From: Desulfovibrionaceae bacterium | GTDB taxonomy: Bacteria; Desulfobacterota; Desulfovibrionia; Desulfovibrionales; Desulfovibrionaceae | Assembly (NCBI GenBank): GCA_015709205.1 | Contig: JACCQO010000007.1 | Location: 1-61,885 of the forward strand | DNA: 61,885 bases | Direction: 5' to 3' | Shown: piece after piece, positions 55,621 through 61,746 of the stretch | Layout of the letters: each line of letters starts with the position of its first letter | Numbering within the stretch: the first letter of the stretch is position 1 | Made by a program: the position numbers and the translations under genes | Notes under the pieces: model-generated | Seen by the model: only the letters and a program-made list of their open reading frames with translations | What the model was told of the DNA's origin: nothing | Database searches by the model: none

Positions 55621-56752
55621 GTGAAAGACAACAACCTGCTGCAGTATCCCGATTTGAAGACCCAATCGGTCCCCCTGCTCGAACAGTTCGAAACGCTCTG
55701 GGGGCGTCTTTGACCTCGCCGGAGCCAAGGCCCGTCTCGCGGCCATAGAGGAAAAGCTGGCCAGCCCCGGGGCCTGGGACAAGCCCGAGGCCCTGACCCC
55801 GACCCTGCGGGAAAAGAGCCGCCTCACCCACCGCGTGGAGCAGTGGGAGACCCTGCTCAAGGCCAAGACCGACCTGGACGAATGGCTGGAGATGGGCGCC
55901 GAGGACCCCAGCCCCGAGGTCCTCGAACCCCTGGCCGAGCAGGTCGGCGTGCTCGGGGAGTTGCTCGACGCCGTGGAGGTCGGGCTGCTGCTCTCCGCTC
56001 CCGAGGACAAGGCCCCGGCCATCCTCGAGGTGCACCCCGGCGCGGGCGGCACCGAGTCCCAGGATTGGGCCGAGATGCTCCTGCGCATGTACCGCCGCTG
56101 GGGCGAGAACCACGGGGCCGAGGTGGAGTTGCTGGACTACCTGCCCGGCGAAGAGGCGGGCATCAAGAGCGCGACGCTGCGCATCGAGGGCGTGAACACC
56201 TACGGGCTGCTCAAGTGCGAACGCGGCATCCACCGGTTGGTGCGCATCTCGCCCTACGACTCCTCGGGCCGTCGGCACACGTCCTTCGCCTCGGTGGACG
56301 TGTATCCGGACGCGGGCCAGGAGATCGTCATCGAGGTGCGCGAGGAGGACCTGCGCGTGGACACCTTCCGGTCCAGCGGCCCGGGCGGCCAGTCGGTGAA
56401 CACCACCAGCTCGGCCGTGCGCATCACGCACCTGCCCACGGGCATCGTGGCCCAGTGCCAGAACGAGAAGTCGCAGTTGCGCAACAAGGAGACCGCCCTG
56501 CGCATCCTCAAGGCGCGGCTCTACGAACTGGAGATCAAGCGGCGCGAGGAGGAACGGCAGGCCGAGTACGACGGCAAGGAAGCCATCGCCTGGGGCAGCC
56601 AGATCCGCTCCTACGTGCTGCAACCCTACCGGCTGGTCAAGGACCACCGGACCAAAACCGAGATCACGGACGTGGACGCCGTGCTGGACGGCGACCTGGA
56701 CAAGCTGATCCGGGACTTCCTCCTGCACCAACATGGGCAGAACAATGACTGA
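55621..56752 (+). CDS. prfB: Peptide chain release factor 2 (programmed +1 frameshift)
   Basis: RF2, terminating at UGA and UAA. The gene is split: codons 1-30 (GTG 55621 to CTT 55708) end at an in-frame TGA (55711-55713), and the remaining 346 codons lie in the +1 frame to 56752, giving about 376 aa as expected. The classical frameshift signal is present: a GGGGG Shine-Dalgarno-like run at 55700-55704, then CTT TGA C. The GGQ loop (SSGPGGQSVNTT) is intact. The stop-codon-reading tripeptide is SPY (SPYDSSGRRHTSF) where RF2 usually has SPF. Expression is autoregulated by RF2 level through UGA competition. Confidence 0.95.
55700..55714 (+). promoter_or_regulatory. prfB +1 frameshift site
   Basis: GGGGG, three bases, then CTT TGA C. 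Slippage of the Leu tRNA from CTT to TTT at the slow UGA produces full-length RF2. Confidence 0.93.
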
Positions 56753-58561: not shown

Positions 58562-58837
58562 ATGAACAAGAGCGAACTGATCAAGACGCTGGCCGAAACC
58601 AACGACATCCCCGCCGACGAGGCCTCGGTGATGGTCAATGTCTTCGTGGATGCCGTCAAAGAGGCCCTGCTCAACGGCGATCGCGTGGAGATCCGTGGTT
58701 TCGGCAGCTTCAAGATCAAGGACTACGGCGGCTACACCGGCCGCAACCCCAAGACCGGCGAAGTCGTCTCGGTCGAGCCCAAGCAGCTCCCGTTCTTCCG
58801 TGCGGGCAAGGAACTCAAGGAGTTCCTCAATTCCTAG
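58562..58837 (+). CDS. HU-family DNA-binding protein
   Basis: Histone-like protein of 91 aa, normal length for HU/IHF. MNKSELIKTLAE starts it, and the beta-arm signature RVEIRGFGSFKIKDYGGYTGRNPKTGE is followed by the conserved AGKELKEFLN end. A dimeric nucleoid protein that bends DNA. The ATG at 58562 has GAAGGA upstream; the longer frame from 58502 is rejected. Confidence 0.95.
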   Translation: MNKSELIKTLAETNDIPADEASVMVNVFVDAVKEALLNGDRVEIRGFGSFKIKDYGGYTGRNPKTGEVVSVEPKQLPFFRAGKELKEFLNS

Positions 58838-58883: not shown

Positions 58884-59921
58884 TTGCCGCACGTCGACAC
58901 ACCGCACGGCGCCCCGCAAGACGTCCCGCCGTTCCGCCGAGCCCCGACCTGCCCCGCGCAGACCTCCCCGGCATGGCGCATCCGCCCGGCCCGCCGTCAC
59001 CCGTCGTTGGCAGCGATCCTCTCGGCCCTCGCCCTGGGGGCCATGCTGCTCACGGGATGGCCCGGCGGGACCGGCTGGAGCCCTCGCGATGCCTGCCCCC
59101 GGGCCGCGGCCGCCGAGCGCGCGCCACGCCTGTCCATCGCCTTCACCGCGGCCACCGAGGGCGTCTACGCGCCCTGCCCCACCTGAGGCGGCAAGTCCTT
59201 CGGCGGGTTGGCCCGGCGGGCCAGCCTTCTGCGCACGCTCGTCGCCGATCCGGCGGCAGGGCCGACCACCTTTCTGCTGGCGGGCACCGAAGAACTGCTG
59301 CGCGCGGAATGGGACCCGCAGGACCATCTCACGCCGCACACGGCCGCGGCCCTGACCACGGCGTACAAGGCCATGGGATATAACGCGGTTTTCCTCGGCC
59401 CCAACGAATGCCGCTTGGCGGACTTGCACTTTGCCGAATTTCCGGGCAATTTTATCTGCCTCGGGCCACACCTCGCCACCCGCGTGCTCACGCGCGGCGG
59501 GGTTCGGCTGGGGCTCGTGCTCCTGCCGCCGCCGGCCGACGGAAAGGAACCCGACGCGGAAACGCTCCGGGCCGTGGCCCGCGAGGCACGCGCCCTGCGC
59601 TCCCGGGCGGATCTGGTCGCGGGCATCAGCTGCTGGGGCGAGGCCGCCGAACAGCACTACCTGGACACGCAGGAGCCCGTGTTCGACGTGCTCCTGGGGA
59701 GCGGTCCCGGCCCGGTGCGCGGGCGCATCGCGGCTCAGGGGCGGACCTTCTGGGTGCGTTCCTATTCCGAGGGCCGTGCGGTCATGGTCCTCAGGTTTTT
59801 CGAGCTGCCGCACGGCGCGGACTGGACCATGCGCCCCGGCGAAAACGTGGAACTGGACGTGCGCCGCCTGGGAAACGACGTTCCCGACGCGCCGGATATC
59901 GCCAAACTCTTTTCCAACTGA
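58884..59921 (+). CDS. Probable selenoprotein, UshA-like (CxxU), read through an in-frame TGA
   Basis: One frame runs through a single TGA at 59184-59186. Upstream it encodes a signal-like hydrophobic segment (SLAAILSALALGAMLLTGW) and then GVYAPCPT; downstream it continues GGKSFGGLARRASLL and some 230 well-formed residues to 59921. The TGA thus gives Cys-Pro-Thr-Sec, a CxxU redox motif, and an SECIS-like hairpin follows at the right distance. The sequence around it recalls the UshA-like (seleno)protein family, but the 5'-nucleotidase metal motifs are not seen. The start is uncertain: TTG 58884 is the only start codon upstream of the signal segment in this frame, without a ribosome site; TTG 59007 is an alternative. 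It would be exported. A nonsense mutation is the rival explanation. Confidence 0.72.
59205..59227 (+). promoter_or_regulatory. Candidate bacterial SECIS element
   Basis: A 10-bp stem (59205-59214 with 59218-59227, two G-U pairs) has a GGC apical loop beginning with G, 28 nt after the TGA. This meets the usual bacterial SECIS constraints for spacing, stem and a G at the loop start. Confidence 0.6.
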
Positions 59922-59987: not shown

Positions 59988-60824
59988 ATGGATACGCCCT
60001 CTACGGTCCGCTTCCACAAGATGCACGGATGCGGCAACGACTTCATATTTTTCGATAACTCCACCCTCGGCGTGCGGCCGGAATGCATGGCCGACTGGGC
60101 CCGGGCCCTGTGCCCGCGCGCCTTTGCCGTGGGCGCGGACGGCCTGATCTTTCTGGAGCCCACCCCGGAGGCGGAGACCGCCTACCGTTGGCACTTCTTC
60201 AACGCCGACGGCTCGCGCGCCGAAATGTGCGGCAACGCCTCGCGCTGCGCCGCGCGGCTGGCCGTGGAGCTGGGACTGGCCGGGCCCGAGCACTCCTTCG
60301 GCACGGACGCCGGGCCCATCCAGGCGCGCGTGCTCGAGGGCGGCGTGGCCAAGGTCCAGCTCACCCCGCCCGAAGGGCTGGCCCTGGGCGAGGAATTGAC
60401 CGTTGACGGCACGCTCATGACGGTGCACTTCGTGAATACCGGAGTGCCCCACGCCGTGGTCGTGTGCGAGGACGTGGCCGCGGTGGACGTGGCTGCCAAG
60501 GGCGCGGCCATCCGCTACCACGAGCACTTCGCCCCGGCGGGCACCAATGCGAATTTCATCCAGGCCACGGCCCGGGATGCCCTGCTCCTGCGCACCTACG
60601 AGCGCGGCGTGGAGGGCGAAACCTACGCCTGCGGCACGGGCGCGGCGGCCTCCCTGGTGGTGGCCAACGCTTTGGGCCTCGTGGGCTCCAGCGCGCGCGT
60701 GACCACCTCGGGCGGCGAGGTGCTCACCGTGAGCCTGGAGAACGGCTCTGTGTTTCTGCAGGGCATGGCCGTGAAGGTCTACGAGGGAACGCTCGAACCG
60801 GCGATGTTCGGGCTGAGCATATAG
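59988..60824 (+). CDS. dapF: Diaminopimelate epimerase
   Basis: DapF of 278 aa converts LL- to meso-diaminopimelate for lysine and peptidoglycan. The N-terminal FHKMHGCGNDFI, FNADGSRAEMCGNASRC with catalytic Cys81, the PHAVV segment, the second half's ACGTGAAAS with the partner Cys and FLQGMAVKVYEG are intact. It lies 41 bp before dapA. Confidence 0.96.
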   Translation: MDTPSTVRFHKMHGCGNDFIFFDNSTLGVRPECMADWARALCPRAFAVGADGLIFLEPTPEAETAYRWHFFNADGSRAEMCGNASRCAARLAVELGLAGPEHSFGTDAGPIQARVLEGGVAKVQLTPPEGLALGEELTVDGTLMTVHFVNTGVPHAVVVCEDVAAVDVAAKGAAIRYHEHFAPAGTNANFIQATARDALLLRTYERGVEGETYACGTGAAASLVVANALGLVGSSARVTTSGGEVLTVSLENGSVFLQGMAVKVYEGTLEPAMFGLSI

Positions 60825-60864: not shown

Positions 60865-61746
60865 ATGGAATTCAAGGGCGCGTACACGGCCCTGGTGACT
60901 CCGTTCACCAACGGCATCGTGGACGAGGAAGAGTACCGAGAACACATCGAGTGGCAGATCGAACAGGGCATCGACGGCCTGGTTCCCTGCGGCACCACGG
61001 GCGAGTCCGCCACGCTTTCGCACAAGGAGCACGCCGACGTGGTGCGCATCTGCGTCGAGCAGGTCAAGGGCCGCGTGCCCGTGCTCGCCGGCGCGGGCTC
61101 CAACAACACCGCCGAGTCCATCGAGCTGACCAAATTCGCCAAGCAGGTCGGGGCCGACGGCGTGCTGCTGATCACGCCCTACTACAACAAGCCCACGCAG
61201 GAAGGGTTGTACCAGCATTACAAGAAGCTGGCCGCCGAAGCGCCCATGCCGTTCATCATCTACAACGTGCCCAGCCGCACGGCGCTCAACCTCCTGCCCG
61301 AAACCCTGCAGCGCATGGCCGCGGACATCCCCGAGGTCGTGGGCGTAAAGGAGGCCACCGGCGACCTCAAGCAGGTGGCGCACATCCGCGAACTGTGCGG
61401 CCCGGACTTCCAGATCCTGTCCGGCGACGACTTCACGGTGCTGCCGCTCCTGTCCGTGGGCGGCTGCGGCGTCATCAGCGTGGTCTCCAACGTGGCTCCG
61501 GCGCTGGTCGCCGGGTTCTGCAAGGCCTGGGCCGAGGGCGACACGGCCAAGGCCCTGGAAGGCTTCCTGGCCTCCCTGCCCCTGTCGCGGGCCATGTTCC
61601 TGGAGACCAACCCCTCACCGGCCAAGGCCGCGCTCAAGCTCATGGGCCGCGTCAAGTCCGACGAGGTGCGCCTGCCCCTGGTGCGGATGTTCGAGAGCAA
61701 CGTCGAGGGCCTGAAGAAGATTCTCAAGGAATCAGGCCTGATCTAG
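60865..61746 (+). CDS. dapA: 4-hydroxy-tetrahydrodipicolinate synthase
   Basis: DapA (293 aa) condenses pyruvate with aspartate semialdehyde, the first step of the diaminopimelate branch. Thr44-Thr45 (PCGTTGES), Tyr133 (IYNVPSRT) and the Schiff-base Lys162 (GVKEATGD) are in place. GGAGG precedes the ATG. Last gene in the window, co-transcribed with dapF and followed by a terminator. Confidence 0.96.
   Translation: MEFKGAYTALVTPFTNGIVDEEEYREHIEWQIEQGIDGLVPCGTTGESATLSHKEHADVVRICVEQVKGRVPVLAGAGSNNTAESIELTKFAKQVGADGVLLITPYYNKPTQEGLYQHYKKLAAEAPMPFIIYNVPSRTALNLLPETLQRMAADIPEVVGVKEATGDLKQVAHIRELCGPDFQILSGDDFTVLPLLSVGGCGVISVVSNVAPALVAGFCKAWAEGDTAKALEGFLASLPLSRAMFLETNPSPAKAALKLMGRVKSDEVRLPLVRMFESNVEGLKKILKESGLI

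Follow-up and report, generated by a model that had tools for sequence, protein, structure and literature searches.

The window, a stretch of 61,885 nt from contig JACCQO010000007.1 of a Desulfovibrionaceae bacterium, contains on its forward strand (58884..59921) a new and divergent representative of a selenoprotein family that is already catalogued, with no known function found for it, and this gene, for an exported protein, almost certainly reads an internal TGA (59184-59186) as selenocysteine (Sec), as judged from the homologue TGA column and a scan of TGN codons. The frame 58884-59921 is open save for this TGA, which is preceded by the codons CCC TGC CCC ACC (Pro-Cys-Pro-Thr), and it ends at the TGA at 59919-59921; 58884 is a candidate start. 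Reading the internal TGA as Sec gives a 345-residue protein with the sequence Cys98-Pro-Thr-Sec101 (59175..59186), a CxxU motif identified by translation and homologue alignment. The preliminary description, made from the letters of the DNA, had proposed a selenoprotein hidden by an in-frame TGA, and this overall reading is supported by the family match, the homologue column, the Sec machinery of the genome and a hairpin at a fixed place behind the TGA.

The read-through protein matched NF049981 of NCBIfam, 'UshA-like (seleno)protein family 2' (UshA_like_Sel_2), at 236.8 bits against a curated cut-off of 140 bits, and the UshA-like (seleno)protein family named in the preliminary description was the right one. 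The match covers profile positions 1-261 of 262 and residues 83-343 of the protein (59130..59912), crosses Sec101, and is broken on the DNA by one TGA; the CxxU motif of the family is present as C98-P-T-U101. In Pfam, the window protein generated nothing relevant, with one sub-threshold match to a phage protein. As a table in a 2026 review lists NF049981 as 'UshA-like selenoprotein family 2' with CxxU (WP_420705249.1, 'GenBank annotated'; PMC13188914), the family is already known, and a COG0737 UshA-like CxU selenoprotein is found in lists of PMC2398784 and PMC9312934. Among the literature matches listed, which are a part of those found, NF049981 itself occurred within PMC13188914 only, and no title concerned the function of the family. 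The window protein shares with NF049981 a near full-length match above cut-off, the CxxU motif, and Sec or Cys at the TGA position, but it is a divergent copy, with a best identity of about 39% to the copies fetched and Ala at residue 90, where 68 of 74 copies have Asn. The related family NF041198 (UshA_like_PCGU) has Sec in a similar motif, but it matched the window protein weakly (residues 73-173, 29.1 bits, far under the cut-off of 275), its profile has 519 positions compared with 262 in NF049981, and the table in PMC13188914 gives it as CxU and the family of the window as CxxU.

Of 349 genomes in the window's class, 187 gave a match to NF049981, and in 181 of them it exceeded the cut-off. 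In a sample of the phylum, 6 of 395 genomes exceeded the cut-off, all six from the window's own taxonomic family; weaker relatives outside that family mostly contained one TGA among the matches listed. Alignment of the window locus, 30 loci from the class search and 40 chosen regions (74 copies in 71 loci) gave U in 68 copies and C in 6 at the TGA column, with no other residue, a ratio that is not a frequency since the 40 regions were hand-picked for genus breadth and for inclusion of Cys forms. A DNA pattern for the motif, in which TG was fixed but any third base of that codon was allowed, was scanned over a set with a single genome for each GTDB species. It recovered 80 copies in 75 loci, of which 74 had TGA, 6 had TGC, and none had TGG or TGT; BLASTP paired every one of the 80 with the window protein, none at worse than 6e-8. 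The two sets overlap, because the genome collections share members. The UGA of the window gene is thus aligned with Sec or Cys in its homologues, the pattern that the preliminary description had named as support. Two of the 74 copies (loci L069 and L090) keep the Sec-TGA and have no partner Cys of CxxU (PLRAU and PIKAU).

From the end of the preceding gene to the start of the NF049981 domain, the only in-frame ATG, GTG or TTG codons are TTG 58884, TTG 59007 and ATG 59043. TTG 58884, the most upstream of these and 46 bp past the preceding HU/IHF-family gene, is one candidate start; no clear Shine-Dalgarno sequence was seen ahead of it by eye. A basic stretch and a hydrophobic stretch lie N-terminal to the NF049981 domain and by eye resemble the leaders of homologues, the signal-peptide-like part being RIRPARRHPSLAAILSALALGAMLLTG...AAAAERA (58977..59117). 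The homologues listed carry hydrophobic leaders at their N-termini, upstream of the TGA. Without read-through, the ORF list yields a 237-aa piece from TTG 59208, just the fragment that the preliminary description had expected of ordinary gene calling, whereas coding continues through the TGA in its Cys-Pro-Thr-TGA context, as had also been described. That the TGA is a true stop, so that the gene is either dead or makes a short secreted peptide with an independent 237-aa protein behind it, would agree with this mechanical ORF call and with the window copy being one of eleven long end branches in the tree, but it is extremely improbable and was rejected on the TGA/Cys column and on the position of TTG 59208, which encodes Leu109 within the conserved GG-L-ARRA block (G107, G108, R111 and R112 are invariant in 74/74 aligned copies), so that a restart there would begin the protein mid-motif; the leaders upstream of the TGA in homologues also stand against it.

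The search for selA, selB, selC and selD that had been suggested as a check found selA (568.3 bits), selB (346.1 bits), selD (333.2 bits) and a tRNA-Sec (80.7 bits, gathering threshold 47; anticodon tca by ARAGORN) in the genome, every one above its cut-off. On contig C20, about 260 bp separate the selB match from the selC match. The same genome has one in-frame TGA each in selD and in one of two fdhA genes. Behind both of these TGAs it is possible to draw a hairpin with a G among the first two loop nucleotides, though the search required that G and chance alone often produces hairpins of this kind. The two formate dehydrogenase alpha genes, both above cut-off, are located at G000:C16:18980-21985 and G000:C12:17054-20056, one with the TGA and the other without it.

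A 10-bp hairpin with a G-initiated loop had been described 28 nt downstream of the TGA, and it is present at 59205..59227 on the forward strand, where 59205-59214 pairs with 59218-59227 around the loop GGC (59215-59217). Its use as support for a bacterial SECIS element held in one respect and failed in another. By generic rules for bSECIS elements, the window hairpin qualifies (loop GGC, 28 nt, 10 bp, -21.3 kcal/mol), but its local fold stability is ordinary (z = -0.29; 74 of 200 shuffles fold equally well or better), and for the window gene alone 5 of 40 shuffles were at least as stable. A loose form of the rule says little, since it accepts 73/73 Sec copies, 5/5 Cys copies and, when the Sec copies are shuffled synonymously, 91% of the shuffles. 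Rfam produced no meaningful match at the gene. The part that stood is the position of the hairpin. From 154 copies, 138 were distinct over the first 100 nt (126 Sec, 12 Cys) and 137 were long enough for a fixed-place test, in which at least six contiguous pairs and a GG or GU loop were required at a fixed spot and the expectation was taken from each gene's own synonymous codon use; this geometry was chosen after the loose-rule results had been seen. The hairpin was found in 115 of 125 distinct Sec copies (9.1 expected) and in 2 of 12 Cys copies (0.5 expected), a contrast for which the Fisher p of 2e-8 is only indicative because the sequences are related. No Sec copy with GC3 below 0.5 lacked it (23 of 23), and the first Arg of LARRA is encoded by CGG in 111 of 126 Sec copies, compared with 23% of the Arg codons further downstream in these genes.

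Covariation evidence for the hairpin was mixed. Among 69 distinct Sec copies, the covariation score was 0.158 versus 0.119 in shuffles (0/500 as high), and slid versions scored at most 0.095. Cells with changes on both sides numbered 24 versus 14.9 in shuffles (0/500), and a slide of -1 likewise gave 24; three pairs had changes on both sides, a number reached by 197 of 500 shuffles. Pairing fails between columns 24 and 42 in 32 of the 69 Sec copies and between columns 25 and 41 in 37 of them, and the inner six pairs are therefore the widely kept part of the 10-bp stem. As the copies are related, none of the hairpin and covariation numbers is a probability. What argues for a putative bSECIS element is the exact place and geometry of the hairpin across homologues, and not its generic stability.

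A tree was built from 111 rows, 103 of them different, with a midpoint root for drawing only. Its 11 Cys rows fall among the Sec rows as two groups with good support, one of 8 and the other of 3, and six intermediate sequences, which lie across the midpoint root from the rest, also have Sec. Sec is likely the older state, which on this branching would have been replaced twice by Cys. The window copy sits on its long end branch with 39% best identity to the rows of the tree. A Cys copy and a Sec copy lie close together at loci L116, L121, L145, L146 and L163 (Solidesulfovibrio), and also at L058, L081 and L082; such adjoining copies are a natural pair for comparing both versions. The idea that genomes with only Cys copies have no Sec machinery was tested with selA and failed, as the genomes G065-G067, with one stop-free copy each, carry selA. 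In all, selA was found in 23 of 24 genomes checked. As seven genomes of genus g18 without an NF049981 match in the class listing all carry selA, the gene for the UshA-like family 2 protein looks dispensable.

The selenoprotein gene belongs to a conserved cluster that also includes prfB, an HU/IHF gene and dapA. The order in the window is lnt, prfB, a gene for a GGDEF protein, a gene for a MinD-like ATPase, the HU/IHF-family gene (58562..58837), the selenoprotein gene, dapF (59988..60824) and dapA (60865..61746), the HU/IHF-family gene, dapF and dapA all being on the forward strand. Neighbours were counted for 153 other copies, from overlapping sets that include the six intermediate sequences. 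An HU/IHF gene was upstream in 123 of the 143 copies with at least 600 nt of flank, whereas dapA was found in 73 and dapF in 26 of the 103 copies with at least 1500 nt of downstream flank. prfB was upstream in at least 94 of 153 copies, many loci being too short to show it. The prfB gene of the window (release factor 2, 55621-56752) reads 30 codons from GTG 55621 and continues in the +1 frame, with the shift site CTT TGA C at 55708-55714 behind GGGGG at 55700-55704, which is the layout of the classic +1 programmed frameshift. Release factor 2 competes with Sec insertion at UGA; the proximity of prfB to the selenoprotein gene is probably just old synteny.

Family 2 appears to have the 5'-nucleotidase (UshA) fold with the metal-ligand residues mostly gone, a kinship drawn from profile comparison through an intermediate group. 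The members of this group are six loci found in the pattern scan (L125, L127, L135, L153, L158 and L161), and in their trimmed form they reach the cut-off of neither UshA-like family. Its profile matched solved nucleotidases (3ivd at 4.7e-24 and the 5'-nucleotidase 2z1a at 3.1e-22) and aligned with family 2 at an hhalign E of 1.9e-36. The profile of family 2 alone (A1, as distinct from A2, which includes the six intermediate sequences) reached nucleotidases weakly (E 0.0085), and family 2 against E. coli UshA alone gave an hhalign probability of 15.6. Through the intermediate group, the family of the window is colinear with the N-terminal part of E. coli UshA, but it is without most metal-ligand residues, and the window protein ends after about 266 domain residues and has a Cys-x-x-Sec loop added, which follows the first metal motif in the alignment with UshA.

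The metal ligands of E. coli UshA, which we take to be Asp41, His43, Asp84, Asn116, His217, His252 and Gln254, were compared in the alignment, where the UshA residues at all seven positions were confirmed. Among 105 family-2 rows, some of them identical, Asp41 is kept in 5, His43 in 4, His217 in 3, and His252 (Gly in 105) and Gln254 in 0; the Asn116 column has Pro in 68 of the 105 rows, among the residues listed, and the Asp84 and Asp120 columns are gapped in the UshA alignment, so that the ligand state is not readable there. From the Asp41 to the Gln254 column, the window protein has A, E, a gap (at Asp84), P, C, G and G, and in the six columns other than Asp84 no ligand of an active 5'-nucleotidase is kept.

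The roles of SelB and release factor 2 at UGA are established. In the proposed mechanism, which the comparison of homologues supports, SelB with Sec-tRNA would bind the hairpin 28 nt behind UGA 59184-59186, and Sec would be inserted at this UGA instead of termination by release factor 2, which would give the Cys-Pro-Thr-Sec motif. The product, a selenoprotein belonging to UshA-like (seleno)protein family 2, would be exported, with an estimated mature mass of roughly 29 kDa, and is predicted to fold like the N-terminal domain of UshA with most metal ligands gone; in it the Cys-x-x-Sec loop, positioned after the former first metal motif in sequence, would serve as the active site. We infer a metal-free fold with the Cys-x-x-Sec loop as its putative active site, the place of Sec with respect to the earlier metal centre being read from sequence. 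As the metal ligands are mostly lost and Cys-x-x-Sec is kept, the chemistry is probably redox rather than that of a phosphatase, and Cys-x-x-Sec may quite plausibly act as a periplasmic thiol/selenol redox pair. The Sec without Cys at L069 and L090 speaks against an obligatory Cys-Sec pair.

Alternatively, Sec could be inserted as a metal ligand or, together with Cys, as a metal-binding site. The 5'-nucleotidase fold family, to which profiles give the kinship, is metal-dependent, the alignment places the Sec loop behind the first metal motif, and the two copies that keep Sec without the Cys of CxxU also fit this explanation, but most of the UshA ligand positions are replaced in the counts given above, and we consider it rather unlikely. 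Improbable as well is a role of Sec as the nucleophile of a hydrolase or transferase, acting in the former phosphoester-binding pocket, or else on a substrate containing sulfur, in a manner recalling the related thiosulfohydrolase SoxB. Distant profile kinship to SoxB was seen when the intermediate sequences were included, TIGR04486 being matched by 7 of 64 A2 members (E up to 0.001) and the A2 profile hitting the SoxB chains 2wdc and 4uwq at about 6e-4, whereas A1 gave SoxB an E of 0.071 and SoxB is not among the window protein's own matches. SoxB needs its metal site, which is largely absent in family 2, and the window protein is shorter than SoxB.

Reading of the raw sequence thus uncovered a gene that, by comparison with homologues, encodes a selenoprotein, and that a mechanical ORF listing splits in two; the family to which it belongs is catalogued and common among genomes of the window's class. 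That Sec is retained while metal ligands have disappeared offers a specific hypothesis about the role of this family that can be tested. We tentatively propose that a dead 5'-nucleotidase fold may have become a metal-free periplasmic selenoenzyme, encoded beside HU/IHF and lysine-synthesis genes in much of Desulfovibrionales. If this is true, a metallophosphatase scaffold would have lost its metal centre and would carry a selenocysteine active site in its place.
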